Assembly: GCA_033439265.1 (NCBI GenBank)
Contig: JAVTVX010000013.1
Span: forward strand, 8,024,501-8,088,500
Length of the DNA stretch: 64,000 nucleotides
From: Dillenia suffruticosa
Taxonomy: Eukaryota; Streptophyta; Magnoliopsida; Dilleniales; Dilleniaceae
Direction: 5' to 3'
Shown here: in pieces, positions 4,961-48,056 of the stretch
How positions within the stretch are numbered: the first letter of the stretch is position 1
Layout of the letters: the number at the start of each line of letters is the position of its first letter
Position numbers and translations under genes: made by a program
Notes under the pieces: model-generated
The model's input: only the letters and a program-made list of their open reading frames with translations
What the model was told of the DNA's origin: nothing
Databases searched by the model: none

Positions 4961-5000
4961 TGTTGTCGGAGAACTATTTTAATTTCTTAATTTGTATTTT

Positions 5001-5835: not shown

Positions 5836-6104
5836 TGTTGAGAAATAGTTATTGAGCTAAATTCAGCAAGTAGTTAGTTTGTTAGTTTGTTAGTTTGTTA
5901 GTTTGTTAGTTTGTTAAGAAGTTAGTTTGTTAGTTCAACAGTTAGCCATTTTGGTTTTGAAGCTGAGCAGTTGAGGTAGGCAGTTAGTGTTAGTTCCTTC
6001 TTTGTATAAATAGATCCCTACTGTTACAGAATGGAGGTATGAATCTATAGCAGCATTGTTGATGTTGTAACCCAAAACCAATATACTTAGCTCATATTTT
6101 AACA
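5836..6104 (+). repeat. 5' LTR of the copia element
   Basis: 269 bp, begins TGTTGAGAAATAG and ends CATATTTTAACA. It contains a run of the 8-bp unit GTTAGTTT (about 5875-5921) and a TATAAATAG box near 6005. The 16-bp length difference from the 3' LTR equals two copies of that 8-bp unit. Confidence 0.95.
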
Positions 6105-6116
6105 TGGTATCAGAGC
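6105..6116 (+). promoter_or_regulatory. Primer-binding site (initiator tRNA-Met)
   Basis: TGGTATCAGAGC follows the 5' LTR without a gap. It is the standard complement to the 3' end of plant initiator tRNA-Met used by Ty1-copia elements. Confidence 0.95.
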
Positions 6117-10448: not shown

Positions 10449-10701
10449 TGTTGAGAAATAGTTATTGAGCTAAATTCAGCAAGTAATTAGTTTGTTAATT
10501 TGTTAGTTTGTTAAGAAGTTAGTTTGTTAGTTCAACAATTAGCCATTTTGGTTTTGAAGCTGAGCAGTTGAGGTAGGCAGTTAGTGTTAATTCCTTCATT
10601 GTATAAATAGATCTCTCCTGTTACAGAATGGAGGTATGAATCTATAACAGCATTGTTGATGTTGTAACCCAAAACCAATATACTTAGCTCATATTTTAAC
10701 A
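10449..10701 (+). repeat. 3' LTR of the copia element
   Basis: 253 bp, same ends as the 5' LTR, preceded by the polypurine tract GAGGGGGAG and followed by the target duplication AAAAT. Confidence 0.95.
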
Positions 10702-26608: not shown

Positions 26609-27059
26609 CACTACTAGAAAATGAACTTTAAGTGACGGAAAATTACCGATGGATTTTTTTCCATTAGTAATAGCTATGGAATTGCGACGGATTACTGACA
26701 GAAATTTTATCGACAGATTACCGACGGATTTTGTATAATTTTTTTATTTTTTTTAATTTTTTAATTTTAATTTTTTTGTAAATCTATCAGCGATGGATTA
26801 CCAACGGAAATTTTACCGACAGATTTTTAAATTGTTTTTCAGGAATTAAGGGGCCCGTTGGGCGGGCTGAGTGAATTTTTTGTTGACATATTTAGTGATG
26901 GATTTTTTTTTGTTGCTAAATCCGTCGTTGATTTAGCGACGTAACTATTAGTGACGGATTTAGCGATGGAAAAAATCAGTCGCTAATATCTTTCAGCGAC
27001 CGAAAATAAACTTTTAACGATAGATTTTTCTATCGCTGAAAACCCATTTTCTAATAGTG
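26609..27059. mobile_element. Small non-autonomous CACTA transposon (451 bp)
   Basis: Starts CACTACTAGAAAATGA and ends with the complement of CACTATTAGAAAATGG. It is flanked by TTT on both sides, the 3-bp target duplication expected of CACTA elements. The interior is filled with short direct and inverted copies of GTGACGGA/TTAGCGACG-type words, the subterminal repeats where CACTA transposase binds. No coding sequence. Confidence 0.85.
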
Positions 27060-27395: not shown

Positions 27396-27479
27396 TATAA
27401 AAATACAATATTTGAAGTCTGAATCCTCTAACTTAGTATTGATTTCCATTATTAAAAAATATGATTTTAACGATAAAAT

Positions 27480-29015
27480 AAATTCGTCGCTATTTTGCGA
27501 CGAATTTTGGGACAAAAACAGAATTCATTGCATTTTGCAATGAATTTAGTGACAAAAGCGTATTCGTGACAAAAGCATATTCGTGGCAAAATTAGCAACA
27601 ATAGTGTATTCGTTGCTAAATTCATTTCTAATTATCTATAAAAAAAATTTCATGGTTAAATTCATGATTAATTAGTGACGACTAGTAATTTCATCGGTAA
27701 ATTTACAATGAATCCATTCTTTGTAGCTATAGCAACCAATCTCTGTTTCGATGCAAAATTTAGCGATGAACTCCCAATTCGTGACAAAATTCATTATTAA
27801 TTAGCCATTAAAATATTTTCGTGACAAATTTTAGCAACAAATTTCACAATCTGTAACTAACTTTATCGTTAATTAGCCACAAAAATATTTTCAAGACTAA
27901 ATTCATGGGTACTTTGCAATGGTACATGATAATTCCTGACTAATTTTGTGACTAAATTCTTTCTGTACTCTTTTATCTTATCTCTCTTTTTTACTCTTTC
28001 TGAGTTACTATATCAAGTTAAATATATTGTGAATGTTATAGTTCGCACCAAATTGACCATTTTCAACAATAAATAATTTAACTAATTATAACCTTATTCT
28101 AAGTACAAGACTATATTAGGTATCAAACAATTCTTTTAGAGATTAGACATATGAATCTATACTTATTTTAAATATTAATAATCATAACTTTAAGAAAAGT
28201 TACAAATTTGTTTAAATAATCTAGCAATTGTGTAAGAATGAAAATCAAACTCCTTTTATCAATGAACCACACGATAATTATTTTTTCGTCTTTAGTTTTC
28301 TTGTAAATTTTTGAAAACTACTTTTTCGCAGTTAATTAATCGCAAATAACTAATTCGTTACTAAATTTGTTACAATAAGTGGATAAAATAAGTGGATAAA
28401 TGTAGATTTTGTCACAAGTTTTGTCACTACTTAATGATGAAAATGTCGATTCATCGCTAATTTAGCGACGAAAATATTAATTTGTCATTAAATTGGTGAC
28501 AAAAACACTATTGGTTACTAAATTTAAAGACGGATTCTGACTTTCGTCGCAAAATTTAGTGACAAAAATCTATTTCGTTGCTAAGTTAGCGATAAATTTG
28601 ATTTTCGTCGCTAAATTTAGTGATGGATTGAGATTTTCTTCGACAAATTAGCGACGAATTTTATTTTCGTAGTTGATTTCAGTGACGGACAAGATATTCA
28701 TTGATAAAACAGTGATAGATGTTACAGAATTTAGTGGCGAATTTGAATTTTCGTTGTGAACTACTTTTCATCACTAAATTAGAGACGAATTCTGATTTTC
28801 ATTGTTAAGTTTCGTCCCTAAGTTAGCGACAAATTGGAATTTCTGTCGCTAAGTTAGCGATAAATTTTTATTTTCGTCATTAAATTCAGCGATGGATTGC
28901 CTATCCGTCGCTAAAATCAGAGACAAACAGGACATCCATTGCTAAAATCAGCGACAGACAGAACATCGATCGCTAACTTTGCGGGGAATAACTATTTTCG
29001 TCACTAAGAGGGTTT
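27480..29015. repeat. Left subterminal repeat region of the large CACTA element
   Basis: Several dozen direct and inverted copies of degenerate CGTCGCTAAATT and AGCGACGAATTT words, many adjacent as hairpins. It ends shortly before a promoter-like, pyrimidine-rich stretch. Confidence 0.8.
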
Positions 29016-29934
29016 TTTATTTTTTAGGGTTGTATGTTTTGATTTTGTTTTCATTCTCTTCTTTTCATCTCCTGCCCTAGCTATTTGCTTCGCCTCCCAT
29101 TGTCTCTCTATCACATCCTTCGTCGCCAACTTTCCACGACCTCACTGACTTCATCACTCTTGATTTCATTGACCTTCATAATCGACCTTCATCTTTGTCG
29201 ATCTGCTGCTCTTTCAATACGTTGAATCCTTCATTGTCAACCTCACCTACTTTCATCATTATTTTATTCGACCTTCTTCCGTAAACACCCCAAACCCACT
29301 CCCACTCCCACTCCCAAATGCCCCAAACCCTCCTCCAACATCGTTGAATCCAATTCCGTCTCTCAACGGTACTTCCTCTCTCTCTCTTACTGTTATTACT
29401 TTGTTTTTGGTTATTTTTTTTCTTTGTGTGATTCGCAAGCTTCAAAAGGAACTAAAGATATCTGAAGTAACTAGGTGATGTTCCCTGATCAATATGTAAA
29501 TTTATGTTCTATTCTTGGGAGGTAGAAAATGAAGCAGGCTTCTGAAATCTATGATCGGCATGAGAGTTGTTAGAAGCAGGGTGTGCAGCCTTTGCTCGTC
29601 TCTAGGTTTTTATTTATTTATTTATTTCTTGGGTTTTTGATTTAATTCAATTCATTTAGTAAAATTTTCCTCTGCATTTGATTGATTTTTCTGGTTATGG
29701 GTGTTCTTTGGCATTCAAAGATTGCTTATTCATATAGGTTTTGGTTGGTTTGCATTATGTTTTCTCTGAAACACTTAAATGCTAGAAGTAAGAAAAATTG
29801 ATTACCATGAATATGTAATGTAAATAATTTGAAGAAATTCGAGTAATTGTTTGTTGTAGTATATAATATGTGTGTCAAGATCACATTCTTCCCTTTTGTT
29901 TTCCTAGGCCCTCTATAGAACCAAGAACTTGTTT
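29016..29934 (+). other. Pyrimidine-rich, leader-like segment inside the CACTA element
   Basis: The plus strand resembles a plant 5' leader and first exon: CT- and C-rich, with CCCACTC repeats (about 29294-29314), then possible GT-AG introns and a short conceptual exon before 29944 after CTAG (29906). It may be another captured gene fragment, but I cannot name it. The opposite strand is open for 89 codons (29445-29176) with simple composition only. Confidence 0.3.
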
Positions 29935-30032
29935 GGAGTATTGGGAGACATGTAGGGATCTAGCACTGTAGAAAAAAAAAATTTAAACAACACACCTACG
30001 AAACTTATTCCAAATATAACACATCCATGTCC

Positions 30033-30090
30033 AGTTTTCAAAACTCATCATACATTGAACATGTTGAGTCTTCAAGATTCGACACGCTTG
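30033..30090. repeat. Palindromic subterminal motifs, left MULE end
   Basis: Degenerate copies of the palindrome TCGAGTCTTGAAAACTCGA (here CCAGTTTTCAAAACTC and GTTGAGTCTTCAAGATTCGAC) directly inside the inverted repeat; better copies occur at the right end. Confidence 0.55.
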
Positions 30091-30791
30091 TGCCATAAAC
30101 TCCCCGCCTCTTCTTCTTTCTTTCTTCCTTCTTCTTCCTTTCTGCTTCTTCTCTACTCCGCCACAGACAACTGCACTTTCTTCGACTGCGTGTACGATCT
30201 ATAGCATCTGAGAAGATCTGCAACCTCAAAGAAGTTCATTGAGCACGATCTAAGCCTTTGCAAGATCTACACGGTGAAATTTGACGATGGTAAAGTGTTA
30301 TTTGTTTTCTGCTAATTTTGGAAATTTATATGTTTACATTGGTTTAATTATTTTTATGTACATTGTTAAATTGATATGCTCTTTGTTGATTGAACTAGAT
30401 TTTGCAGAGATTTAATTAGGATATTTAGGGTTTAGGTTTGTTGGAAATTAATATTAATTTAGGAATTATAGTTTTTTATATTTAGGAAAAAATTAGGGTT
30501 TAGGGTTTTTTCATAAATTTATTAATTATTAATTTTAGTAAGTTTATTATTTGTTATTAAATTAATATTATTTTACTAATTTAGTTAATTGTTTGTTGAT
30601 TTATTAAAAATTTAATTTAGGGTTTTAATTGAAAATTTTAGTAAATTTATTATCTATAGTGAAATTTAGGATTATAATATATTTAAATTTATTATTTATA
30701 GTTAAATTGAAAAATGAATTAAATTTAGTATTCTCTCAAATAGACATTTTCGATTATATATTAATAAATTATTTTTTGATATTAAGTAGAA

Positions 30792-33316
30792 ATGACGGAT
30801 ATGGTGAGATTGTTATGTTATACGAATGGTGAAATTATGATAAGTGAGAATAAAGTGTGTTATGACCGTGGGTTTTCGAAGTTGATTCAGTAAAAAAAAA
30901 TGCATCTTTTAATGAGTTGGTGTCCGTGATGTGTAAGGATCTTCGAATCAATTCCATGAGATAACATGTAGAGATTTTTCATCGTTATCCCGTGTTACAC
31001 ATTCAAGGAGGGAATGCATGGTACGAATTAGTATCGATTAGTGATGATGATGACATTTTGAACTAGAAGGAGTTTGTGGTGAGTATGAGAGTTGGTACAA
31101 CTCATGAATTGTTTATAAAGGCATAAATGCTGGAATGTCTGTACAATAAGATTGCGATTATATGGATGAATATCCACGTATCGAATCTCGAGTGGATCTT
31201 GCTATTACAGATATGGATAACAACGTGAATGAGGAAGAAGAGGTGGAAGAAGAGGATGATGAAGAATAAGAAGATGTTGGAAAAGTTGGTTGTGAAAGTG
31301 GTGATAGTTCTATGAATCAGATAATATTGAGATCCTCCTCAGCGCCTCCACCTATTGGTGGTGGTCGGAGATATGTCTGTAACGAAGTTGATGACTCAAT
31401 TTCTTTCATGAGAACTGTACTAGGAGGAAATTGTTATGTGATTTTTAAGGAAGATTGTAGATTGACATATGATAGTAGGAGTTTTAGTAATGAATTGAAG
31501 AAAATGACGAGTTTTGAGTCGAATGAGCAACTTATATATTGTGTAAAAATGCATCATGTAGAGTATCACTATCAATTCCGTGTTTGGAGATCAACCCCTA
31601 TACTATGGATAATGATATGTACCCAAAAAGATGAGAGTTGTAGATGGAGGTTGTGTACATGTAAAACAAGACTATTTGGTGCTTTTGTGATAACCGTTGT
31701 GGAGGGACTGTACACATATGTCAATGCTGAGTTGACGTAGGATCATAGGCAATTGTATTCAAATTTTATGGTCCAATATTTTCTTAACTACGTAAGGGAA
31801 GACCTAAGTGTCAAAATTTCTTTCTTATGAACAGTTATGGCGGAGCGAACCATGTATGCAGTTTCCTGAATACGAATTTGGGTCACGAAAAGAAGGGCTA
31901 TAGAGATGGTATATGGGGATTGAGATGAATCATACAAAGAGCTATCTCGAGTTTTGAATGCAATAGTCAAAAGGAATCTAAGATGACAAGTATCATGGAA
32001 GTTGGATCCGCCTCGAGAAAATGATGCTTGAAAGTGTGTTTTGGGTATTTGGTCCTAGTATTAGGGCATTTAAGAGTTGTCGGTCATTGATAAGTATAGA
32101 TATGATTCACTTGTATGGGAGATACAAACACAAGTTATTGATTGCATGCAGTATGGATGGGGTGAATTACATTGTCCCGTTGACATTCGGCTTAGTGGAT
32201 GAAGAGTTACTTGCGTCGTGGTCGTGGTTTTGATGTATATTCGAGACTATATTGTTGGAGATAGGTAGAATCTCATTTGCTTGATTTCATATCGACATGA
32301 AGGGATAAGAACAACAGTTGTTCATCTGGAGTTTGGATGGTTACCTCCGATGGCTATGCGACAGTTTTGCATGAGACATGTCGCTAGCAATTTTAACATG
32401 CATCACAAAAGTCAAGCTTGTAAGAAAGTCGCTACCATTGCTGCATTACAACCACAACGTAAGAAATTTAATCTATATATGGCGAGACTGAAGGAGATAA
32501 AAGATTATGCCTCCGATTACTTTACGATCATTGACCCGGAACAATGGGCCCTTTCTTATGATGGTGACTTTCGTTTTGGGTATATGATCGCAAATATTAG
32601 TGAAAGTTATAATATCGTACTAAAATGTGTAAGAAATCTACCTGTTTTTGTTTGGTACTTAAGACATTTTATAATTTGATGAACTAATTTGACGCTAGAA
32701 TTGATGAGGCAAAAGCGGGAATGGCAAGAGGAGAACGGTACACGAAGTATACCAATGCCATGCTAGGAATGTGGATGAACACCACAAACCTCCACATGGT
32801 TGTCTCTTTTAGTAGAGAAAATGAGATATTCGAGATAGAAATAGATCATAGACAAATACGGTATAACCATAAGGGAGGTAATAAACAGATTGTCGACGTC
32901 AATAATGAATATTGCATTGGCAAAGGTATAGAATACCTTACTCACATGCAATCGCTACACTAACACATACAATGATCGGCGTACATATGATCATGAGAAA
33001 ATGGTATATGTGGGAGCAACAATTATGAGTGTACGAGTCTTATTTTTTGCCGATGGGGGACAGATCTGGATGGCCCTTCGGTTCGTACCCTACTATCATT
33101 TTCGATGTATCATTAAGGCATGAGAAAGGGAGACCAAAATCATCTCGATATAATAACGAGATGGATGTTCGAGATTCATCTTCACGGCTATCATGTAGCA
33201 GTTGTAGTGCCGAGAGCCATAATCAGAGAAGATGATCGAAATAAATGAGATGTGGTCTTTGTGGGAGACAAGACCACAATTGAAGACATTGTCCAACCAT
33301 ATCGCATGAAAATTGA
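30792..33316 (+). pseudogene. MURA transposase remnant of the MULE
   Basis: Mutator-type DDE transposase. An N-terminal region starts MTDMVRLLCYTNGEI (30792). The DNA-binding MuDR-like region is about 31312-31740, with the cysteine-rich CRWRLCTCKT near its end. The MULE catalytic domain is about 32000-32700. SIDMIHLYGRYKHKLLIACS (about 32086-32150) holds the first catalytic Asp; the second motif, normally ISDRH, reads ISYRH at 32284-32298, replacing the Asp. A GRPKSSRYNNEMD stretch (about 33125-33165) and a C-x2-C-x4-H-x4-C knuckle (33251-33292, RCGLCGRQDHN) end the protein as in other plant MURA proteins. Numerous stops and frame changes (after 31740, near 32232, 32679 and 32963, and inside the knuckle) make it a pseudogene. 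Confidence 0.85.
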
Positions 33317-34223
33317 TAATATTTGTATTTTAGTTAAAATTCATGTATTTCTTATTGTAACGGATATAATGTATTTATTAAACTTATTAATTATTTCCTT
33401 TTCTTATATTTGTGAAATATTGTAATATCTTGTATTTATTGAGTGTTGATATTTTCAAATTAAATGTATGTTCGTATTTTTTATTTAATTGAGTGTTTAT
33501 ATTTTTCTTAACGCGCAATGGCTGATATGTATTTGTAATCTAAATTAATTTTTCTTTCTTTATTTTGCTGATGGATCCAGGATCTTCTGATCCGAAACTT
33601 TTTCTAGTTATAGCGACGCCACCATTCTTATCGGGTTTGAGAGGGAGAGGACATGACGGCTTCACTCATTTGCCATCAACGTGAAGCCATGCTACTTCGT
33701 TAGGAGCACAGTCAAATCGACAAGCGAGTGCTTCCACTTTTGGAGCACTCAGAATTTTTGGGCATAACTCGACTACATTTCATTCAGTTAGATTGGCATT
33801 TGATTATGGTCTTGGTGGAGCGATGATTGCCAGAGATCCACACTTTTCACCTCCCCCACGATGAGATGACTATCACTCTTCAGGATGTTGAGGTACTTTT
33901 TGGGTTTCCTATGGATGGTCATCCCATCGTAGTTAGGACGATGGGAGTGCCATGGGATGATGTTTGTGAGAGACTTTTAAGTGTTAGATTTCCATGATCT
34001 GCGTTTAGAGGTTACACTTTGAGCATGCCATGGTTATCTAAGTATTTTTCTGAGTTGCCCGGTGGTATTGATGATGTAGCTATTTTACGGTAAACACGAG
34101 TTTATGTTTTACTTTTGATAGGGGTGTGTTGATTTATGATAAAATAGCATATTGTTAAAGCACTTAGAGTTGTCAGGTAGTTACAGTTTGAGGTTTGCAT
34201 AGTAGGTATATTTGTATAGATAA

Positions 34224-36865
34224 TGTCACGCCCCAAACCTGGAGCGTGAGCAGCCGCCCGTTACCCTGGATGCCGGCTGTATTTTTATAGAAAATCGGGC
34301 AGAATCTCCCCATATATCGGATGTCTCCCATATTAAAATAAACATGTTATCTGTCCAAAAGAGGCCATCCCGACCTCAAAATGCATAAATTATCCTCAAC
34401 AACAAACCAGATCATCCATACTGCACAATCCACGGCAACGCAAGGCTAACAAACAATTCTCCACAGTCCTAACCACAGACCTCTACTGCCATGCCCCCAT
34501 CAAAGGCATGGACAGCCGCCAGTCGCCCCTCCTATGATTTAGAGGAGACACCGAGCGATCCTAGAGGACACTTCTAAGACATGACAATTCCCAAATACAG
34601 ACGCAATGAAAAGAAATGCCTCAATGCAATGTCATGCAGTGACATGAGAGTTCCATAAATTAAATATCCATATTTATACAGTCATCCCAGAATTATAAAA
34701 ATGGTCATCTATAGACCTCAAAATACATATACATCACCAATACAAATTTTGTAGCGGAAATACACAATGACTCCTCAATCCAGGCCTGATCTCCCAAAGA
34801 TACTGAGCGTCCTAAAAGCGACACTCCTTGTCAAATACTATCTCTGAAATAAAAGGGAAATGAGGGGTGAGTACTCGGGAAAGAATACTCAGTGAGTGAG
34901 TGGGTCAATGCAGTCATCAAATATGGAGTGTGAAACTGGAGTGTCAAAACATAAGTATACAATCATATTTCACGTCATCATGCTTTTCATTTCAACAATA
35001 TGTCATTTGCACGCATTATCAAGTCAAATATGCATCCAAAGCACTGTCATTAAAATCATAGAGCTGCCAATCGAAAATGTCCTGACAGAAGTCTACCGCG
35101 ACCTATGACAGGCGCACCGGGGGTATTATATGCAAATTTCTTTAAAGTGCTCTCTACCCCGGCGTTGGTGACAAACCTCGTCCAGGTGCTAGACTTGGAG
35201 AGGATATCCAATCCAAATCCAAATCCTCCCCCTTTCGGGTTCAACCTGTCTAGTACCGTGTAGATAATCAAATCACGACAACTCGTGGGATACCCCAGGC
35301 CTAGGCATATCCGGACGCTACCAAAGCGTCTCTCACGGTGTCCTTCGTAGCTACGGAACAATACAATCCAAAGTCCTCAAGGCCAAAATCAATATCATAT
35401 CAAAATGTGCCAAAGTCAGGTTCATAAACCAATGCAGCATAGAGTATAAAATGACACATTATACATTTCAACCACATGGATGCATAATTTCATAATTCAA
35501 CACAGTTTTTGGACACTCCATCGGTTCACAAAAATCAATTTTAAAACCAGTCAAAACATTTCAAGTATACGACAAATCATGCTCCTTTACCAAAATGTTG
35601 TAAAACAGGATTTACATATTAAACAAAAGCATTGAAATAAATCCCACTCACTGATTTTGGGGAGGATAGCGCACTCCCCAATAAAACCACAATACGTAAA
35701 GCAATGCTCCCTTCAATCGAATCACCAAAATAGCCAACCTACTCAATCATCACGATTTTCATCAGATTTCGACTATTGTCAGGATTTATCATTTTCCTTA
35801 AATTCGTACATACCCTAAATTCCTCAATTTATAAACATATTCCAATGTCATCAATTTCATTCTATTTATAAATAAATAACAAAATCAAAATCAATCTTAA
35901 TTTGAATTTAAAAACCAACTAATACTACCTAATTTGACAAAATTTATCCAAAGGTTGAAGAGATTTCATTTCTCTCACCTAAGGTTTCTCGGATCTCGAA
36001 TTTAGCTTTCGTTCGCCCGTTGGTTTGGTCTAAAACCTGAATGTTTCCAAATTTGAAACAATTGCGAACAATTTAAGTCCAATACTAAAGAATTTTGAAA
36101 CCCAAGTGCGAAAATCAAAACTTAGAGTCATTTACCTTCGTAGAGGCTTACGGACTGTCACGGGCCGTCGCGGGCCGTGGGCCGCGGGCTGATGGGCTGG
36201 CGGGCCTGGTGGGCCTGCGGGCCTGATGGGTCTGCGGCCTGGTGGGCCTGGCAAGCCGGATCACGCGCTGGAGCGTGCTCGCGCTCGTGCTGGCGTTGGC
36301 GCTGGCTCGCGCGCTGAAGCGCACTCGCAAGCTGGATCGTGCGCTGCTTGCGCTGTGGGTCGCACGCTGGAGCGCTCGCGCTCGTGCTGGGGCGTGCTGG
36401 AGCAGTGGATCGCACGCTGGAGTGCACGCTGGCTCGTGCTAGGGCGTGCTGAGGCGCGCTGGGGTCGCGCGCTGGGGATCGCGGCTGCTCCCGCGCTGCT
36501 CGCGCTGGGCTCGCGCGCTGCTCTCGCTGGCTCGCGCTAGCTCGCGCGCTGTTGTGCGAAGGAGAGGAGCTGCAGTGGCGCTCGTGCAGAGAGGAGCTGC
36601 AGCGGCTCGCTCGCAGGAGGGAGGATCTACGGCGGCTGGGTACGGTGGTGATGGTGGTGACCGGCGGTGCTGGCGGCGGCAGCGGGAGGGGAGAGAGGTG
36701 CGGCGGCGTGGGATCGGGAGAAGAGAGAAGAAAAGGAGAGAGGGAGAGGGAGAGAGAGAAAGAGAAGAGAGGGGGAAAGAGAGAGAGGGAGAGAGGGGAG
36801 AAAATTGGGCTTTAAGCCCTAATTTTTTATTTTTCCCCTCTTTTTTTTTTTAATTGGGTATTACA
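34224..36865 (-). mobile_element. Solo LTR of a Ty3-gypsy-like element (2642 bp)
   Basis: Starts TGTCACGCCCC and ends GGGTATTACA. It is flanked by the perfect 5-bp target duplication GATAA (34219-34223 and 36866-36870). No internal domain or second LTR, so it is a solo LTR left by recombination. The complement (TGTAATACCC...GGGGCGTGACA) reads like the LTRs of plant Tekay/Del-type elements, so the minus orientation is preferred. The half near 36140-36720 is extremely GC-rich with CTGG/GCGCTCGC low-complexity sequence, followed by a GA-rich run (36720-36800). Confidence 0.8.
36142..36720. repeat. GC-rich low-complexity tract in the solo LTR
   Basis: Degenerate repeats of GGGCCTG, then GCGCTGG/GCTCGCGC words. 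This produces long alanine/arginine-rich open frames on both strands that are not genes. Confidence 0.75.
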
Positions 36866-38489
36866 GATAATTTTGTATTGTCACATACGCAAATTCATGT
36901 GAGATTGGTGGCGCGCTAATTTTGTTATAGATTTGAGGGTGAGAGCGGTTTCCTTATATGGCTCCTATTTGATGATCTTTGCACATAGATGGGGATGGTC
37001 TACTCGCTTTGCCATGGCATGCTGACTTTAATTGACTATGTTCCTTACACATATCGTTTCTATGTATAGGGAGGCACTATATAGGCAGACTGTCGATTTG
37101 GTCATTTGGGGCCTATATTTCGAGAATTTACTGTCATCTTTCCCCGACTACTGTCATGAGAGAAGGGGTATTTGACATGCGCAAGTCCCATTGATTTGTT
37201 TTAGTATCATGGAGTGATATTTCGTAGATAGGGAGTTACGACACTTTGGAGGATTTTAATACATTCTGGTTGACTGTGATATTGAGGATAAACTCCACGA
37301 TATAAGTACGCGAGGTACACTAGAGATCGATTGGTCGGTAGAGCATGCAGTGTACGTTGATCATTGAACTCACCGACACGACCATCTAGTTATACTAGAC
37401 ACTTCTTCTGGACCTACTCTCGATCCTGCCTATTCAGCCTGATTTCACACTATCTTCCAGAGATTCGTCGGTCGTCGTAGAGTTTTTTTGACTTACATGG
37501 TAAGTTTTTTACATCTACTTATTTTCATTCTCAATCAATAAATTTAACTTGTTATTTTAACTAATTTTTACATAATTTTTTGTAGTGGGAAACTTTGCAC
37601 AAGATACGAGATAGTTCAAGTGTCGATGTTCGTGAACTTGTTGATTGAGCCATCTCGGTTCTAACAGATGATATGATACGTCTTTTGAGAGTTAGATTCG
37701 GTAGAGGGGGCGACGACAATGGTGATGCAAACTGAGCACGTGGTCTACAACGAGGGAGAGGACGGCGTACGAGATCTCCTCCCTCGTCCGATCATGCATT
37801 ACCACCACCCTTTCAGCAACCGGACGATGTCTCAGGACCTTCGACTACATACGGTATGTCTTCATCTTTCTATACCCTTGTGTTTGATGACTGTCCTCAA
37901 ATTTTCACTTTGAGGGCTCCTGAGAGGGGAACTTATCCCGATAATTTTATGGATAAAGAATTGAAACAAGATGTGAGAGATGATACACCACCAATATATC
38001 ACGTGTCTTTATTGTTTTTTTCGACCTCCACCAATAGGATGTATACTCTTCCTAAATCATATAGATAAATGATTTGGGTTAGTATCTTGCGATAATTGTA
38101 TAGATAGTAGAATAGATTTAGGTTTTTGACAGTATATTAGAAGAAAACGACATTGAAATTTATTTTTTATAACATGTAAATTTTTTTTTAATTAATAAAA
38201 TTTCTTTTATTTATTTATTTTATTAATTATATTTTATTTAATTTATTCGATTTTTTGGATTTTCTGATGTGTTGTAATGTTTGGGTTGTATTGTAAATCT
38301 GTTTTGAAAATTGGTTGTGAAAAATATTTTGGAGTTTGGAGTTTGTTAATTGATTTGTTGTGATATTTGGATTGTATTGTATACCAATTTGGTTTTATTT
38401 TAAAAATTGGTTGTTCATATTTTAGAGTTTGGAGTTTGTAAATTGAGTCAGAAAAGAATGTGCAAAATGTAGTGGAAGGGGTTCTGGTT

Positions 38490-38645
38490 TCATGTCGAGT
38501 CTTGAAAACTCATTATATACGGTACATATTGAGTTTTGAAAACTCGACGTATTCATTTTTTAAAATATATCGAGTTTTCAAGACTCGACATGCGCGACAT
38601 GCGTGATCAATACATGTCGAGTCTTGAGACTCGATATGAGTGTGT
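38490..38645. repeat. Palindromic subterminal repeats, right MULE end
   Basis: At least four copies, in either orientation, of a 19-bp palindrome of the type TCGAGTCTTGAAAACTCGA, next to the inverted repeat. Candidate transposase binding sites. Confidence 0.7.
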
Positions 38646-38728
38646 TATATTTGGAATAAATTTTATAAGTGTGTTATTTAAATTTTTTTTTCTACTGTGC
38701 TAGTTCTGTACACATCTCGGAGTATTGG

Positions 38729-39249
38729 TTCCCTTTTTTTTTTATCATTTTTTTTTATGGGCGTGGGTAGAAAGGACCATTTGATAAATTGGAATTAGAA
38801 GGAAGCTTTGAGCGAAAAGTATATTTTATTTATTTTTCTTTTTTTTTGGGTTCCTCTTAAAAATTTTTCTGCAAATGATTTGCTAAATTGCTTCTGGCCT
38901 TAAGTTACTTTTTCCTTTCTTACATTTGCTACTGATTGAGACTGCAACTTTGGCTCCCAGTGCTACATTCTAATTTCCATTGAAAGTTCCAATTGGAGGA
39001 AAAAGGTTTGTTGCAGTAGGGTTACACCAATTAAAACTTCCAGTGTTCTTAATTCCGGGATGTTGTAATCTGGATATTAAGTGCAAGTAATTTACAAAAA
39101 GCAACCATCTCCTACGATTGTTAATTTATCTGACTAAGATCATAAAAAATTTGTATAGCTATTCATCTTGGGAGTTGTTATGATTTATTCAAATGACTCT
39201 ATCCTTTCCTGTTAGTTTTCTTGTCAACTATTTGTGCTGTAAATTGTAG
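38729..39249. other. Intron-like CACTA interior before the importin fragment
   Basis: T-rich sequence ending in a good 3' splice site (AATTGTAG at 39242-39249). Probably captured together with the importin exon as its upstream intron. Confidence 0.35.
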
Positions 39250-39820
39250 GCATCATGGGTGGCAGGACAATATGCCCACATCAACTTCTCCGATCAGAAC
39301 AATTTTCGTAAAGTATTCCAAAGTGTTGTCAATGGGATGAGAGATGTGGAGCTTCCGGTTCGTGTTGATTCAGTTTTTGCTTTGCGCTCTTTTATTGAAG
39401 CTTGCAAAATTATGCAGCATTTGATTTGCTGCTTTTGCTTCAACCTCATCTTTCAGATGTGAGCTATTCATCAAATTTTGGTTTGTGATGATCCGTCCAA
39501 TTCTTCCCAGTTACTTGATTATAGGGGTTGAGATTTAGGTTTTATTTTTGCTGGTCACTTGTGGATTCTTTTCTATTTGACGCATTTATCTTTTTTCTCG
39601 TTTGATTCTTTTTTTTGCTGGTTGGGGTTGAGACTATTGTGGACAAGTTTGGAGAAGAAATGGCGCCTTATGCTATTGGATTATGCCAAAATTTGGTAAT
39701 GGTCTGCTTATTGTCTTCTGTGCTTGGTTTTTTTAGTTATGCCTTTTCTGTCTAAATTTTAAAATCACTTTGAATTTTCAGGCTACTGCTTTCTGGAAGT
39801 GTATGAATGGTGCAGAATAG
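39250..39820 (+). pseudogene. SAD2: Fragment of an importin beta-like gene (SAD2/importin-7 type)
   Basis: Captured piece of a nuclear import receptor gene. The exon 39250-39408 reads [19 protein letters not shown] ... [20 protein letters not shown] scrap at about 39490-39521 encodes IRPILP-like text, 39627-39695 reads [21 protein letters not shown], and 39782-39820 reads ATAFWKCMNGAE and then a stop. The order matches the middle of plant SAD2 proteins. Splice-site-like borders survive: AG before 39250, GT after 39695, AG before 39782. The copy therefore came from genomic DNA, not from mRNA. It sits inside the CACTA element and lacks both ends of the gene. Confidence 0.85.
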
Positions 39821-39821
39821 A

Positions 39822-41190
39822 ATTGGACTTAATACCGATTCTTGATAGAGCTCAATGTTAATTGGGAAACTATCGCTCAAACCCCTGCAAATTCTTATAT
39901 TGGGTACAACTCCTTTGTACATGTCTTTGATGAGATTAATATATTTCGAGAATATCTATTTTTTCATCAGCACTCACCACAATACGTCTTTAGCAACCAT
40001 TTCGTATGGTTTTTCTAGATCAATGAATATCATATGTAGATCTTTTTTATATACTCTATATGTTTCCATCAAATATTTTAACAAGTGGATTGGTTCCATA
40101 ATGGATCTCTCATGCATAAATCCAAATTGATTTTGAGATATATTTATCTCAAATCTCAATTTATACTATATCATTCTTTTCCATAGTTTCATAGTATAAC
40201 TCATAAGTTTAATTTCTCTATAGTTGGAGCAATGTTGTTTATCTCATTTATTCTTATATAACGGTATAATTATATTCTTTCTCCATATTTTTGGTATTCT
40301 CTTGATTTGTCAAATTTTGTTAAAAATATTTATTAATATTACTATTCCAAATTCACCGAAACATTTCTACACTTTTATAGGAATGTTATCGGGTTCTATA
40401 ACTTTATTATTCCCCATTTTCTTTAAAACCCCATTCACTTCATGGGGAGCGAATTTTACGTTTAAAGTCTCTATTAATCTTTTTTATAGATATCTTGATA
40501 TTTCTTATATCTGTTATACTTTTAATATTGAAGAGATTATCAAAATAATCTCTCCAACCCTTTTTTATGTTCTCATTCTTTATAAGTATATCATTGGTTT
40601 CACTCTTAATATATCTAATATCATTTAGATTTTTTCTCTTTCTTTCCCTTATCTTGATAATTATGTAAATCTCTTTTTTTCCGTCTTTAGTTTCTAATTT
40701 TTTGTATAATTCATTATACACCTTACTCTTTGATTCTTGAATAATTTTTCTCACATTTTTTTGTACTTTTGTATTTTTCATATGTATCGCTACTACTATT
40801 ATTCTTAAGATTCCTATAATACTCTTGTTTGGTTCAAATAGCAGTTTGTATTTTTTTGTTCTATCACCAGGATTCCTTGCCTATTGAGGCCTGACCCTTA
40901 GATACACCAAGAACCTCCCTACCTATATTCTTAATATTAATAGATATCTCTTCCCACATTATTTCTAAATTATCGTTGAATTAATTTATCTCTAAATGTC
41001 GTCACTTTTTTTTTCTTTCAGATTCTACCACTTAATTCTTGATTGCACAAATGGATGATACTTTTTTTTCCTTCTAGACACACGTATATCTAAAATTAGG
41101 AGTTTATGCTGAGTTGTTACACTCTCCCCTAATATAACCTTGCAATTCTTAGATGTCATTTTATCATCTTCTTTTAGTAAAAAAGAAATC
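39822..41190 (-). mobile_element. RTE-type LINE fragment, minus strand
   Basis: The minus strand shows the linker and start of reverse transcriptase of an RTE-clade LINE: about 41000-40900 (EEISINIKNIGREVLGVSKG), 40781-40440 (KIRERKRKNLNDIRYIK, KKGWRDYFDNLFN), 40159-39974 (NQFGFMHERSIMEPIHLLKY, HMIFIDLEKPYE), and about 39940-39822 (INLIKDMYKG ... LSPIL). The endonuclease upstream and the YxDD motif plus 3' end are both missing. There is no poly-A at its left border, so it is an internal fragment. Several stops and frame changes. Confidence 0.8.
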
Positions 41191-42057
41191 TATTTGGCTA
41201 GTATTTGAAATCTATTTAAAAATGCAACATTGTGTTTTTTAATTTATTTTAATATACGAGTTGTCTAAATCTATGTAACATTATTTATTTATGTACATGT
41301 AATTTTTATATGCATGGCCATGCTATGTCATGCCGTGATCTTTTACAAAATCAAGTGCGACTTGATACACAAAATCAAGTGGCATATGTTCCGAAACATG
41401 TTCTCAACTCTGACTTGTTACTCAAAATCAAGTGAATTTACTATTTACTTTCTGGCTAAAGGAAGGTTTGGGGAATCATAACTTGAGCCTACTACATGAC
41501 AAATATATCCAGGAAGCATTTACAATCACAAATAAATATTTTGAGTGCGAGGGGAGGTGCCTATTTTGTATAAAGACAATATGAACCATCCTTGCCTTGT
41601 CCTGGATCACCTTTCTTGTTAGTAAAACTTGAAACAATGAAAATGGCCATCCTGGGAAATGGCCTTTTCAACATAGAAAAAATGATGTTGTTGTTGTGTT
41701 GCTGTAAAGGCCTCTTTTTTATATTGGGTCAATTTTTGATAGGGTATCACAGAATGGTTGTAATCCTCCCTGTCCCTTTTCTAAATGTGAGGTATGTTTA
41801 ACACTATTTGCTTTTTACATATGACTTTTTGCATTAGGTAAAATTTCTTCACGATCCTTGGATTAACATGCAAAGTATGAGTGAAGAGTTAACATTCTCG
41901 GAATGGAGTTATAATAGTGCTGCCAAGATAGTTTCTCTAATATATAAATCACGTCGGGCATTGTCATGTTCTCTTTTGTAGTTCTTAAGTCAATTTTGCA
42001 TCCTTAGATTTAAAGTTTCCTCATTTTTGAGTCAAACTGTCTGTTCCACTTTCTCAG
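41191..42057. other. CACTA interior, no clear gene
   Basis: A short frame (41592-41801) is open but unrecognised. The right end is a pyrimidine-rich 3' splice site (TTCTCAG at 42051-42057) belonging to the WDR26-like exon that follows. Confidence 0.35.
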
Positions 42058-42378
42058 GTTGGCGAGAATAATCAAGTGTCAATAACACATATTGATTGGG
42101 CATCATAAACCAGTAATGGTAGTCTCTTGGAGCTCTGATGATTGCCAACTTCTTCCTTGTGGATTGGAGGAGGCTATCAGACATTGGGATGTCGGTTCTG
42201 GGAATTGGCTTTATGTTTATAAGAAGCAAGGTGTTGGTCTGATTTTCTATGGTTAGTCTTCTAATGAGAAAGGCATACTCCATGGACTAACTGATAACAG
42301 TATCTGCCTATGGGACTTGGATTGTAGAACGATTGAACGTCCGAAAAGATAGCGAACCCTCAAGATGATGAGTTGCAT
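42058..42378 (+). pseudogene. WDR26: Fragment of a WD40-repeat gene (WDR26-like)
   Basis: Captured exon of a WD-repeat protein close to plant WDR26. Read with one frame change near 42095, it gives KPVMVVSWSSDDCQLLPCG, EEAIRHWDVGSGNWLYVYKK, then, after a stop, KGILHGLTDNSICLWDLD. Two WD repeats are covered. It is preceded by an intact-looking AG splice site. It lies inside the CACTA element about 2.2 kb from the importin fragment and has no start or stop of its own. Confidence 0.8.
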
Positions 42379-42719
42379 GATGGCAGTTAGATTAAAGATG
42401 GCGGTTTAGTTTATTGATATATATTTATTAACCGGATGTTTATTTTGGATCTAAAGAGTTTCGACCATAAATATTTATGTATTTTGGATAATTTTTATTT
42501 ATAGTTTTGACTTTTGTTGATAAATATTTATTCATATTGATACTTTTTTTGTTTAAACTTTTTTGTTTGGATGATTAAATTTAGTTTTAAGATTAAATGT
42601 GTGAATGAGGATTTCATGTGAATACAGTTTAAGGCCAGATAATTTTGTGTGAATCTTGTTTAAGGTGGGATTTGTGTGACTGATTAAATTCAGTAATTTA
42701 AAATCTTTTGTGGAATTAT

Positions 42720-43080
42720 AAAAAAATCCGTCGCTAAATTTGTAACAAAAAAAAATCTATCGCTAAATTCATTGCAAAAGATCTATCACTAAATTTATTG
42801 TAAAAAAATCTATCACTAAATTCGTGATTAAAATCCGTTGCTAAATTCATTGTTAAGTTTTTATCGTTAAATTTGTTGTTAATTTGTAATGAACTTTGTA
42901 ACCTAAATGTTTCATTGCAAATTTGTGACGAAACATTAAAATTTATATCGCTAAGTTTTGCAATGCTGTATCAATCACGGATTTTTTTTGTCACAAATTT
43001 TTTTCATGATAAATTATTTTGTTTTTTTCTTCATTAATTCCATGGCTAAATGATAACTTTTTTTGTAGTTTTTTGTAGTG
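42720..43080. repeat. Right subterminal repeat region of the large CACTA element
   Basis: Degenerate ATCCGTCGCTAAATTT-type words like those at the left end (27480-29015), running to the terminal TTTTTTGTAGTG. Confidence 0.75.
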
Positions 43081-44045
43081 TTCTTTAATCATCAGGTCTA
43101 TATCTTCTCAAGTTTTTCAAATCCCCTTATTATTATTATTATTTTTTTTTTTACATCTAAAAGCTTGATCTAACCCTAATCCACTCTCCGTCTTACCTCT
43201 CTCCGATTCTAACAATTGGGTTTGTACGAATTGAAATGTTTTGAATGAATAGATGACTTTTATATATAATTTGACATTTTCAAGTATATGTAATTTAATC
43301 TTGTTCAAAAGATAAAGGAAGTTTCGAACTTCCCATTTCAAACTTGTTATATTAGGTTTTTAACAAAATTTTGGATTTTCTGTGGTAAAGCAAATCGGTC
43401 TGAATTCATAGAAAATTCAAAATTTCCTTAGAAATTAGAGCCAATGGTCTATAATCATCTATCTTCAATAAAAAATGGTTTGCTTGACAAATAACCCTGA
43501 GTCTTTTGAATTGAGAAAACGGCAATCGATTATAACTTTGTAAGCATAATCAAATTATAGAAATAACTGCAACCACTGCATTACCAAGACCAACTGCATA
43601 AAGGAGTATTTCAACACGGAAAAGAGGAACAATCAAAGTGGACATTCGATGAACAAAAATTCTACCCTTAGCCATAGGATTAAGTGTAATATAGATATCT
43701 ACTTTTCTCGATTCAAGTTTGAAGGCTGGTAAATTAATATAAACCTTTATGGACTGTATTTAAACTTACCTCGTTTTATTCTCCAATCAAGTTTGAAAGC
43801 CCAACTTGCTCCCTGACACGATGAATTGGTGTAACCCTTTTATGAGATTTGCATTGTTATTATCATTATTTGTGATTTACATCAAGTGATAGTTTGAGAA
43901 TGAAACAGAGACCTAGATTTAGAGACAAGCCAAACGAACACACAATTGGGTTGTGGACAACGTTATTTTTTTGTTCCCGAGAAAACAATTTAGTGATATA
44001 AATCTTCTTTTCTCAATCATCTGGTGATAAAGGTTCAAAATTTTA
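43081..44045. other. Intergenic DNA, no gene seen
   Basis: AT-rich, with a TTA microsatellite (43125-43142). Parts resemble the debris at 26041-27446, i.e. probably the other half of the DNA into which the CACTA element inserted. Confidence 0.3.
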
Positions 44046-44322: not shown

Positions 44323-44819
44323 TTACGCTTAATTTGAGAGTTTAGGAGAAAACAGAAAAAAAAAATAAAAATAAAAATGATGAATTTTCTTCTTTATTTT
44401 ATTTATGAGTTTTAGAAAATATCGAAAATAATGGAGACTCATAAAAAATTAAACATTTTTCTATCATAACCCTAAATTTAATATATTAAAAAATTAGAGT
44501 GAATCAAATTTCCTTTTTCCTTTTTTTTTTTTTCACTTTTAAAGAAATCTTTTCACATTTTTAACGATAAAAAATCAATAGATTTTTTTTTTTTCTTTTT
44601 TCTTCGTTTAAAACTCTCAAATTAAGAAAATAGACTCACTTTCTCTCTTGTCTGTCTTCCCGGATCAGTCCATCCAAACACTGTGTTAAGGTGAATCAGC
44701 TGAAAAGTTCATCTTTTGAGGATGTGAGACGAGAGACGATTTAAACTTGAACAAACTAAATTCTAGTCCAAAAAGCTCGAGCAATTGCTTCTTGAGCCAC
44801 CGAATTCAAAATCTACCAA
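44323..44819. other. Upstream region of the PPR gene
   Basis: AT-rich with T tracts (44520-44533, 44584-44595). From 44640 the sequence is more balanced and contains the presumed leader of the PPR mRNA. No clear TATA box stands out. Confidence 0.4.
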
Positions 44820-47800
44820 ATGCTTTACTCCATAATTCAGTTGCGTGCATTTTCTACTTGTCTTCAGATTCGAAATCGCCCCAAAACCCTTCAAACTCTC
44901 CTCAAAAGTGGTTTCACTCCCACCCTCCATGATTTCAATCAATTCCTTCTCTTTCTCTTCCAATCCCACCGTTTTAATTTTCTTATCCTCTTTTGCGATC
45001 AATTGAAATCGAACCAAATCAATGGGGACTCCTTTACTCACTCACTTCTCACCAAGGCTCTTCTCAAAGAGCACAAATACGAAGAAGCTGAAACCCTAAT
45101 GACCCAAATAGCAAAATGTCCCAACTTTCCCAGAGTTGGCCTCTGGGACTCTCTGATTCAAGGCATTTGTGTCAATGACAATGACCCAGATAGAGGGTTA
45201 TCGGTTCTACGCAATTGCGTGAGGATTCGAGGTATGCGTCCTTCTTCTTTGACTTTCTGTTCACTTGTTCATAGTTTTAGTCGTTTTGGTATGATGGGAA
45301 GGGTTGTTGAGGTGCTGGAGTTGATGAAGGATGATAAAATCAAATACCCATTTAATAATTTTGTTTCTAGTTCTGTAATTTCTGGGTTTTGTAAAATTGG
45401 GAGACCTGAACTTGCATTGGAATTCTATGAACATGCTGTGAGTTCTGATGCTCTAAAGCCTAATTTGGTGACCTATACAGCACTTGTTAGTGTACTTTGT
45501 AAATTAGGTAAGATAAAGGAGGCTAGTGATTTGGTTTCTAGGATGGAAAATGAAGGATTGTGTCTTGATGTTCTTTTGTATAGTAGCTGGGTTTTGGGGC
45601 ATTTAAGGGAGGAGTTGATGCATGAAGCATTTCAGAAGCATAATCTGATGGTTAAAAAGGGGATCAAACCCGATGTCGTTAGCTATACTATACTCATAGA
45701 TGGGTTGTCAAAGGCAGGGCATGTGGAAAAGGCAATTGGATTTTTGAACAAGATGAAAAAGGTGGGTTTGGAGCCAAATGTGGTTACTTACACTGCAATC
45801 ATGTTAGGGTATTGCAGAAAGGGGAAGTTGGAGGAAGCATTTTCATTGCTGAAGATTGTTAAAAAGTTGAGGTTAAAACCGGATGAGTTCATGTATGCGA
45901 CTTTGATTGATGGAGCATGCCGGAGAGGAGATCTTGAATGTGCTTTTCGTATATTGGAGGACATGGAGGATAATGGGATAAGCCCCAGTATTGTAACTTA
46001 TAATTCTATAATAAATGGTCTATGCAAAGTTGGGCGGACATTTGAGGCGGATGAGATTGCAAAGCAGAAAACTGCAGATCTGGTCACTTATACTACTCTG
46101 CTACATAGCTTCACTGAAGAAGAGAATTTGACTGGGATATTAGAAACAAAGAGGACTTTGGAAGAGGCTGGACTACAACTTGATGTTGTTGTTTGTAATG
46201 TTCTTATAAAAGCACTATTTATGGTAGGTGCATTTGAAAATGTTTATGGACTATATAAAAGAATGCCAGAAATGGAGGTGGTTCCAAATTCTGTTACTTA
46301 CTGTACATTGATTAGGGGATTTTGTAAAAGTGGAAGAATTGATGAAGCCCTTGAAATATTTGATGATTTTAGGAAAACGCCTATTTCTAGTGCTGAATCT
46401 TATAGCTGCATAATTCATGCGTTATGCAGGAAAAATATGGTAGGTATGGCAGTGGAAGCATTTGTGGAAATGTGTGAGAAAGGATCAGCTATGGACATAC
46501 CTTCTTGTAAGGTGCTGATAAAGGCAATCTTTGAAGAACTGGGTGCTAGGGGAGTTTTAGATTTTATAGAAAGGTTGGAGGAAGTGGAGCATGAGATGTG
46601 TGCTGCTGTATGCAATGATGCCATATCCTTTTTGTGCAAGAGGGGATTCACCGAGGCAGCATGTCAGATATACATCATGATGCAGCGGAAAGAATTACCT
46701 GTTACAAGTGAGGGCTATTTCTCAATTTTGGAAGCACTTCTTGATGTTGGTGACAGTTCAGTTATGCTGCCTCTGTTGAGTATCTTTGTGAAGGAGAACG
46801 GCTTAGTTGAACCTCTAGTACGGAAAATTCTGATACACTACCTATGTATGTCGGATTCTCCAAATGTCTTCTGGTTCCTTGACAAAATGGAGGAAAACAG
46901 GTTATCAGTCCAAATTTCTGGCACAGATCTCAGGCAGTTTATAAAGAATGGTAGGATTTTGGATGCATATAGGCTTGTGAAACGAGGTGCAGACAGTGAA
47001 CATGTGATTGATCTGCTTGACTACTCTGTGATGGTTGATAGCCTTTGCAAGGAAGGACACATTGATAAGGCATTAGACTTATGTGATTTTGTAAAAAGAA
47101 GAGGAATCATCTTTGATATTGTTACCTATAATTCAGTGATAAACGGGTTGTGTCGTCAAGGGTGTCTAACTCAAGCTTTCAGGTTGTTTGATTCATTAGA
47201 GAGAATAAATTTGGCTCCTTCTGAAATTACATATTCTACATTAATCGATGCTTTAAGCAAAGAAGGGTTTTTAGTTGATGCCAGTCACTTGTACGAAAAG
47301 ATGCTTTTCAGGGGCCTCAAACCCAATACTCAAATTTACAACTCGCTGATTTTTGGGTATTGTAAGTTTGGGCAGTTGGAGATGGCCCTGAAACTTCTCC
47401 CTCAGCTCGAGAATAGAGGTCTAGACCCAGATGCATTCACTGTTAGTTCTTTACTTGATGGTTGTTGCCGAAAAGGCAATGTAGAAGGAGCTCTTAGTTT
47501 TTACTTCGAATTCAAGAACAAAGGTGTCACCCCTGATTTTTTGGGCTTTGTATATTTGATGAGAGGACTATGTAATACTGGAAGAATGGAGGAGGCAAGG
47601 AGCATATTGAAAGAGATGCTTCAAACTCAATCGGTCTTAGAGTTGATTAATAGAGTTGATTCTGGCATTGAGAAAGAGTCTATGGATGGTTTTCTTGCAT
47701 TCCTATGTGAGCAAGGCAATATTAAGGAGGCTGTTATGGTTCTTAATGAAGTAGGGGCCATGCTTTTCCCTGTTAGGGTGCCGTATAGACCTTACAATGG

Positions 47801-48056
47801 ATTAAATCAGCTAAGTAAGCTTGTAGTCCCTTATACACCTTCAAACTCCATTTCTGAAACAAATATGGACTCTAAACTTTGCAGCATGAAGGAAGAAGGA
47901 AAGGGTGGAGAAATTGTTGACAAATATGGGGAAAACTCTCGGCTTCATGATTTTCATGATTACTATTCCAAGCTGGCAATCCTCTGCTCTACAAAGAAGC
48001 TTCAACAGGCTAACAAACTGGCTAAAGAGATGATTTCTAATATGCAGTCAGGCTAA
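44820..48056 (+). CDS. P-class pentatricopeptide repeat protein, probably mitochondrial
   Basis: Intronless gene for a 1078-residue RNA-binding PPR protein. Such proteins bind organellar transcripts and act in their processing, stability or translation. The N-terminus ([20 protein letters not shown]) is rich in hydroxylated and basic residues with no acidic ones, fitting a mitochondrial targeting signal. From about residue 130 to 945 it is a run of around twenty 35-residue repeats, for example [20 protein letters not shown] and [20 protein letters not shown]. The pure P-type spacing and absence of E/DYW domains argue against an RNA-editing factor. The last 100 residues are less repetitive and hydrophilic. 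The start was chosen at the first in-frame ATG, which alone gives the targeting sequence. It looks like the gene type that I recall next to an ORP4 gene in Arabidopsis (At5g57250); this is from memory. Confidence 0.92.

Follow-up and report, generated by a model that had tools for sequence, protein, structure and literature searches.

The 64 000 nucleotides of Dillenia suffruticosa DNA analysed here (the window; positions are counted from its first nucleotide) include a 15.6 kb segment, 27447-43080, which starts and ends like a CACTA transposon and contains pieces of host genes. The question is whether this segment is a single element that has captured gene fragments, as proposed in an earlier note, or debris lying between two unrelated CACTA ends. 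We conclude with high confidence that it belongs to the CACTA (En/Spm) superfamily and is of the Pack-CACTA / Tgm-Express type, an element in which the inner sequence has mostly been replaced by DNA from five unlinked host genes. The features identified are listed in Table 1.

Table 1. Features of the window element and of the DNA inserted in it
Feature	Position	Strand	Remarks
TSD, left	27444..27446	.	TTC; equals 43081-43083
Left end and subterminal part of the CACTA (sequence native to the family)	27447..29117	+	family matches reach 29112-29117
UBC19/20-type E2 fragment	29307..29487	+	donor match for 29307-29451; the remaining 36 nt (29452-29487) lack a donor match and are also in copy L023
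cis-prenyltransferase (dehydrodolichyl-PP synthase-like) fragment	29488..29565	+	donor C13:24001075-24001152, minus
UGGT fragment (exon end and intron, by eye)	29566..29923	+	donor C8:12913421-12913756, plus
SAD2/importin-7 fragment, start, cut by MULE	29926..29944	+	contains left MULE TSD GGAGTATTGG, 29935-29944
Mutator-like element (MULE), later insertion	29945..38718	+	long TIRs, MULE-domain remnant, plant mobile domain; 8.77 kb
LTR-like unit inside MULE, later insertion	34224..36865	.	TGTCACGCCCC..TATTACA; TSD GATAA
SAD2/importin-7 fragment, continued	38719..39817	+	donor C11:8482374-8480700, minus; right copy of the MULE TSD at 38719-38728
LINE-like interspersed repeat, later insertion	39818..41215 (approx., 1.4 kb)	-	label by eye
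SAD2 fragment, 3' part	41216..41786	+	donor C11:8480187-8479397, minus
WDR26 fragment (intron and exon)	41782..42366	+	donor C35:8811674-8812260, plus
Native right end of the CACTA (TIR and subterminal part)	42363..43080	+	family matches
TSD, right	43081..43083	.	TTC; equals left copy

The span proposed earlier was confirmed, with a C at 27447, the right end at 43080 and the same TTC on both flanks. From this C the left end reads CATTATTAAAAAATATGATTTTAACGA, and the right terminus is ..TTTTTTGTAGTG. Both ends are considered genuine because copies of the family elsewhere have the left TIR CACTACAAAAAAATACGATTTTAGC and right ends in ..TTTTTTTGTAGTG, with the CACTA-type start CACTACAAAAAAA at both termini of the family. 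The left TIR of the window element, CATTATTAAAAAATATG (CATTATT), differs from the family sequence at two of the first six bases and, as had been suspected for this CATTA end, is a decayed form of it. The left TIR is closer to that of a CACTACTAGAAAA element located upstream (26609-27059) than to its own right end. However, pairing of the left end with this other TIR family was rejected, as family copies show CACTACAAAAAAATACG.

Subterminal motifs are much more frequent than chance would give. There are 11 copies of YCGCTAA/TTAGCGR in 27447-29010 (0.31 expected) and three in 42700-43080 (0.04 expected), and none in the element interior or in the two long flanks counted. The GTCGC repeats that had been described along both arms are clear on the left (10 exact GTCGC/GCGAC, 1.1 expected) but line the right arm only loosely, because a single exact copy is present there (0.2 expected). 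Subterminal repeats, a CACTA characteristic, are hence found in both arms, more weakly on the right.

The earlier note recognized two captured host genes, SAD2 and WDR26. Both identifications stand, but the number of donors does not, as five host genes are represented. These are, from 5' to 3', a UBC19/20-type E2, a cis-prenyltransferase, UGGT, SAD2/importin-7 and WDR26, all in sense orientation, and the three additional fragments are found at 29307-29923. All five donors were located, on five contigs, and four of the five inner junctions were resolved; host gene fragments are thus inside the element and the parental genes elsewhere, as in Pack-CACTA and Tgm-Express elements. The UBC donor is an E2 (PF00179, 3.2e-26), which was clear only once a further donor exon was included; the fragment itself, by eye the end of exon 1, intron 1 and the start of exon 2, gave a weak tblastn match to protein (E 0.023). 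The cis-prenyltransferase, UGGT and WDR26 donors matched PF01255 (7.8e-29), PF18400 (5.3e-19) and WD40 (4.7e-16), respectively. The SAD2 donor exons matched no Pfam family and a 54-aa SAD2 exon had no match in PDB, while a longer spliced form of the donor matched importin-7 (PDB 6n88, 1e-31). The SAD2 donor locus extends over C11:8479397-8482374 on the minus strand. The segment 41216-41786 was considered as a separate third donor gene and rejected, as the SAD2 search places it in the same C11 gene.

Approximately two-thirds of the 15.6 kb is made up of later insertions (the MULE, the LTR-like unit and the LINE-like repeat), and the element without them is about 5.5 kb. Mutator-like elements have long TIRs and generate TSDs of 8-11 bp, and the nested element has long TIRs and a perfect 10 bp TSD. 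Its transposase domain match (PF10551, E 2.5e-4) reaches 21.9 bits against a curated 27.6, and a plant mobile domain (PMD, PF10536, 2.5e-13) is found downstream of it. The LTR-like unit was not identified by any database search, and the longest minus-strand frame of the LINE-like repeat gave only a sub-threshold, unrelated match in Pfam. The window copy is old and decayed, and probably immobile. No CACTA transposase was found in seven scanned ORFs of the window element, which is probably non-autonomous, and none of the TNP2 type in the three locus ORFs scanned from family members; an ORF in L040 matched Transposase_24 with an E value of 0.015, below the cut-off for Transposase_24.

Genome searches recovered at least 62 matches to the left arm (best 40 of 1734 candidates scored) and at least 65 to the right arm (best 40 of 144), the window included in each case. 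Both arms are present in order in L021 and L033. The second copy with both ends and gene fragments, the absence of which would have counted against the earlier proposal, was found in L033: it is complete (1083-9623, C4:13875882-13884422), is flanked by TTA/TTA, a 3 bp TSD like the TTC/TTC of the window and as generated by CACTA elements, and contains UBC, SAD2 and WDR26, three of the fragments in the window. A further relative, L023, shares with the window the left arm, the sequence at 29118-29306, the UBC piece and the UBC/cis-prenyltransferase junction. No other copy of the UGGT piece was found (all 15 candidates scored), and none of the 5' SAD2 piece among the matches listed (best 40 of 611 candidates scored).

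The SAD2 piece (window 41222-41314) is followed by WDR26 (window 42119-42128 onward) in eight places outside the window. The two abut within 2 nt in seven of these, and are separated by 17 nt in the copy on C5; the junction was aligned in four of the eight and mapped in three more. Among the matches listed, a right arm is present within 1.5 kb downstream of the fusion in five of the eight and at 11 kb in one, and there is none for two; in L044 it was not found within the 1.1 kb of sequence examined. Donor base 8812260 is the last one of the WDR26 match in the window, L026, L033, L043, L044, L046, L027, L028 and L032; in L029 the match runs one base further, and L025 and L052 do not have this common end. 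Upstream of the retained WDR26 tail, L027 and L032 contain other sequence, and L028 has a low-copy piece, also found at C35:1808036 and C13:23767481, with a repeat further in. In L029, a host-gene-like piece in sense orientation adjoins the WDR26 end; we label it TPR/DnaJ-like by eye only, because it had no Pfam match at 0.01. An interspersed repeat within L029:7060-8735 dominated the genome matches, and a shorter piece gave the donor, C13:1879876-1880130.

These copies bear directly on the alternative left standing by the earlier note, namely that gene debris and transposon ends came together by chance between two unrelated CACTA ends 15.6 kb apart. The two window TIRs match poorly when aligned directly, in a comparison where the left query began one base late, and the region is TE-rich, since the second, unrelated CACTA lies only 387 bp upstream. 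However, both TIRs fit one family and the TSD is intact. The left and right arms are found together and in order in L021 and L033, and in L033 the two ends are accompanied by a TSD and by fragments that the window also has. The junctions, both that of SAD2 with WDR26 and that of WDR26 with the right arm, are found again in other copies; this excludes chance assembly, and as an explanation we rate it highly improbable. It is more improbable still that the gene pieces arose as RNA-derived or chimeric transcript insertions. The sense orientation of all five would fit such an origin, but the SAD2 and WDR26 pieces retain intron sequence matching that of their donors, the comparison the earlier note had called for, and this refutes it for both. 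The plus orientation and preserved splice sites reported for them were also verified: SAD2-like exons are at 39250-39423, 39630-39695 and 39782-39817 and a WDR26-like exon, whose aligned frame is interrupted by two stops, at 42086-42367, and splice acceptors are kept at 39250 (ATTGTAG/GC) and 42058 (TTCTCAG/G). By eye, the UGGT and UBC pieces also match their donors past the exon borders. The gene-capturing CACTA interpretation is therefore supported: this is one family with both ends, TSDs, located donors, intron-bearing pieces and recurring junctions, and MULE, LTR-like and LINE-like sequences were later inserted into its window copy.

Timing, and whether the fragments were captured once, were examined using the SAD2 piece. 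Over 543 columns, the window is 89.1 % identical to the C11 donor and 81.4 % to a SAD2 homologue on C1, and C11 and C1 are 86.4 % identical. A tree of nine rows (donor, window and seven copies) is star-shaped and none of its branchings has support, and in this set the window is less similar to the other copies (81.5-84.2 %) than to the donor (85.5 %). Shared derived substitutions were rejected as proof of a single capture; the apparent ones are ancestral, because the C1 homologue has the same states. Separate captures are compatible with these sequences alone, and common descent therefore rests on the shared junctions. Copies in which the sequence upstream of WDR26 differs have the WDR26 end point in common, and this suggests serial capture and loss within one lineage.

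The host fragments were probably copied into a CACTA that had been broken or excised, while it was repaired or replicated, and joined by end joining or template switching. The overlaps at four junctions, 5 bp and 4 bp in two of them and 0-2 bp in the others, would correspond to this. Transposase acting in trans would then have moved the loaded element, and pieces would have been lost or swapped in later copies. A different route, which we consider somewhat unlikely here, is tandem insertion and joint mobilization, with neighbouring CACTAs excising together with the DNA between them, once per donor. This model, for which PMC8903248 and PMC13317346 cite Catoni et al. 2019, is published for Arabidopsis Pack-CACTA, and relatives of the window element do cluster locally, with at least five right-arm loci each on C8 (7.34-7.45 Mb) and C11 (5.32-5.46 Mb). 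Against it, five donors on five contigs gave short pieces joined to each other, and relict CACTA ends, which the process might leave between pieces, were not seen in the junctions aligned. Capture could also have been directional, with WDR26 docked early at the native 3' end and later fragments added or swapped upstream, always in sense, so that the array would stay spliceable from the 5' end of the element. This reading is unlikely, though sense orientation in five of five identified pieces (1/16 by chance if independent) and the WDR26 tail kept below other upstream sequence in L029, L028, L027 and L032 point towards it.

The D. suffruticosa genome thus provides a well-anchored multi-gene capture by a CACTA element. 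With all donors located, four of the five junctions resolved and different subsets of the fragments kept by relatives, capture order and mechanism can be tested from sequence. A gene model predicted on such an array would be chimeric, and we note that nested insertions can hide the fragment array in old copies.

Multi-gene-capturing CACTA elements are already known in other plants, and the window element adds a well-resolved case. The Tpn1 family of morning glory, which Kawasaki and Nitasaka are said to have described in 2004, reportedly consists of CACTA elements with host gene fragments, as found here. In the account of Pack-TYPE elements by Gisby and Catoni (2022, PMC8903248), Pack-CACTA have the CACTA TIR 'CACTACAA' and contain fragments of genes from several loci, and the window element has both. 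Most CACTA Pack-TYPEs are described there as low copy in rice and maize, whereas the SAD2 and WDR26 pieces occur together in nine places, including the window. The gene-bearing CACTA elements reported from Chenopodium likewise contain host gene fragments, but these are short, from one gene per element (Neprosin, AP2) and upstream of the transposase domain in the description given (PMC8978399), compared with five genes in the window. Short microhomology at junctions is shared with Pack-TIRs, which are animal elements, where breakpoint microhomology is given as 1-36 bp (median 2 bp) and gap-filling or template switching is the model (Tan et al. 2021, PMC8277862). Tgm-Express1, described by Zabala and Vodkin (2007, PMC1947982), is a 5.7 kb soybean CACTA at the wp allele that contains intron and exon pieces from five host genes unrelated to each other; the window element, without its MULE and LINE-like repeat, is about the same size and also holds pieces of five genes. 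As far as the cited description extends, it differs from Tgm-Express1 in the genes captured, in having no known location in a host gene, in being old, decayed and invaded by other transposable elements, and in having relatives whose fragment sets overlap and whose junctions are shared.

Both ends of the CACTA element, which the earlier note had placed at 27447 and 43080 with TTC flanks, fit the terminal inverted repeats (TIRs) of one CACTA family. The left and right TIRs match poorly when compared directly with each other. Among the fetched copies, the family left TIR is CACTACAAAAAAATACGATTTTAGC and the right ends are ..TTTTTTTGTAGTG, and the two window ends are therefore assigned to a single family. 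Both arms show strong enrichment of the subterminal motif YCGCTAA/TTAGCGR, which does not occur in the interior. The genome searched comprised 596,357,000 bases in 37 contigs, with the window at C13:8024501-8088500; a query with the left arm's first 1000 bases yielded at least 62 matches (best 40 of 1734 candidates scored), and the right-arm query (42440-43080) at least 65 (best 40 of 144 candidates scored). Among the matches listed, right arms of this family cluster locally at C8:7.34-7.45 Mb and C11:5.32-5.46 Mb of the D. suffruticosa genome, with at least five loci in each, possibly reflecting local hopping or segmental duplication. Features of the window and of the C4 copy (L033) are collected in the table.

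Features of the window (bare positions) and of the copy on contig C4 (L033)
Feature	Position	Donor, identity	Flanks, ends and remarks
CACTA element	27447-43080		TTC on either side
UBC19/20-type E2 piece	29307-29451	C16:20579575-20579738, 78%	19/20 subtype by eye
Cis-prenyltransferase (CPT) piece	29488-29565	C13:24001075-24001152, 85%	adjoins PF01255 exon
UGGT piece	29566-29923	C8:12913421-12913756, 84%	donor gene with thioredoxin-like domain PF18400; UGGT name by eye
SAD2/importin-7 piece	38720-39097, 39095-39817, 41216-41345, 41402-41786	C11 minus 8482374-8479397, 83-88%	collinear
WDR26 piece	41782-42366	C35:8811674-8812260, 86.7%	donor has WD40 repeats; WDR26 name by eye
Mutator-like element (MULE)	29945-38718		10-bp flanking repeat GGAGTATTGG; ends are long inverted repeats
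LTR-like unit nested in MULE	34224-36865		GATAA flanks
LINE-like repeat	~39818-41215		counterpart in L029, 76.6%
Complete C4 element	L033:1083-9623		CATTACAAAAAAA..TTTTTTTGTAATG; TSD TTA/TTA; UBC, SAD2 and WDR26 pieces
Small CACTA nested in C4 element	L033:~7919-8946		left TIR similar to that of 26609-27059
Separate 451-bp CACTA	26609-27059		CACTACTAGAAAA..TTTTCTAATAGTG; TSD TTT/TTT; 387 bp upstream of element
CACTA-like left end	63390-64000		CACTATAAAAAAAGAC; continues past window edge; dense GTCGC/GCGAC array, 13 observed vs 1.2 expected
Copia-like open frames	5836-10701		label by eye; between direct repeats 5890-6104 and 10487-10701, 97% identical
1086-aa open frame	44796-48056		many PPR repeats; immediately downstream of element

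All five captured pieces lie in the sense orientation relative to the element. The earlier note had described SAD2-like and WDR26-like segments in plus orientation with splice sites, and had proposed comparing introns with the donors; this description holds. Donors were located on C11 (minus strand) and C35, and intron sequence and acceptor sites are kept in the captured pieces, which places capture at the DNA level. The WDR exon of the window carries two in-frame stops, and this piece is thus not an intact coding unit. The spliced C11 donor matches importin 7 (6n88, 1e-31), with no family matched in Pfam; SAD2 is presumably the appropriate name for this importin-7-like gene. A later exon of the UBC E2 donor corresponds to PF00179 (3.2e-26).

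The window copy was subsequently enlarged. The interval 29945-38718 is classed as Mutator-like because of its flanking repeat, inverted repeats and internal domains, namely a MULE transposase domain (E 2.5e-4, score under the curated cut-off) and, downstream of this remnant, what is left of a gene with a plant mobile domain (PF10536, E 2.5e-13). As the SAD2 donor gene is unbroken at the corresponding point, the MULE inserted approximately 19 bases into the captured piece. Of the 15,634-base span, the MULE plus a single copy of its TSD accounts for 8,784 bases and the LINE-like repeat for ~1,398, leaving ~5.45 kb. The end of the LINE-like repeat (39811-39930, whole or part) explains 37 of the 42 matches listed in the SAD2-region search (best 40 of 611 candidates scored).

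The second copy with both ends and gene fragments that the earlier note had proposed looking for is L033. WDR26 sequence (from window 42119-42128 onward) follows a SAD2 piece (window 41222-41314) in at least eight places besides the window (best 40 of 52 candidates scored), the spacing being 2 nt or less in seven and 17 nt in the C5 copy. Of the eight, seven were fetched: four had their junction aligned at single-base resolution, and three had it mapped. The window holds ~806 bases (SAD2 piece 3' end and WDR26 piece 5' part) that these copies lack, and a single deletion in their common ancestor is the simplest reading. A right-arm match among those listed lies within 1.5 kb downstream in five of the eight and at 11 kb in one, with none listed for two. 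At least 13 further places match just the WDR26 tail and the beginning of the native right end (query start 1124-1152; best 40 of 52 candidates scored). L023 has the left arm, UBC piece and UBC/CPT junction in common with the window. Outside the window, the UGGT piece (all 15 candidates scored) and, among the matches listed, the 5' SAD2 piece (best 40 of 611 candidates scored) were recorded only at donors and homologues.

In the window and in L026, L033, L043, L044 (no right arm in the 1.1 kb fetched), L046, L027, L028 and L032, the match to the WDR26 donor stops at base 8812260; in L029 it extends one base further, and L025 and L052 are without this end. Upstream of the WDR26 tail, L027, L028 and L032 carry different sequence, that of L028 being a low-copy piece also present at C35:1808036 and C13:23767481, and L029 carries a host-gene-like piece (likely donor C13:1879876-1880130, 85%). 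This common end beneath differing upstream sequence suggests that WDR26 was probably acquired early in the lineage and that upstream DNA was subsequently lost or replaced. The 9.9-kb stretch holding the L029 family copy also includes an open frame with an ANTH domain (L029:51-1166, 3.7e-21).

Separate capture of the same genes in different copies would fit the tree of nine rows (donor, window and seven copies), which is a star without resolved forks, and the window's identities, which are 85.5% to the donor and no higher (81.5-84.2%) to the other copies. However, gene order and junctions are common to the copies, making separate captures unlikely. Over 543 columns of SAD2, identities are 89.1% (window-C11), 81.4% (window-C1, the donor homologue) and 86.4% (C11-C1), and on this comparison SAD2 capture is taken to postdate the split of the C11 and C1 gene copies. 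Window junctions overlap by 5 bp (SAD2/WDR26), 4 bp (AGAT, WDR26/CACTA) and 0-2 bp (UGGT/SAD2 and CPT/UGGT), and 36 nt at the UBC/CPT junction match no donor. The pieces may have been joined via end joining or template switching, with which the overlaps are compatible, though proof of neither.

A literature search for this donor combination returned one unrelated paper, which does not imply that the combination is absent from print. The soybean element Tgm-Express1, a CACTA of 5.7 kb, holds pieces of five host genes (PMC1947982), and capture models and further cases appear in a review (PMC13317346), a Chenopodium paper (PMC8978399) and an animal Pack-TIR paper (PMC8277862). Given such published gene-carrying elements, the window element is a further case of a known type, adding a new member to the gene-capturing CACTA elements already described.
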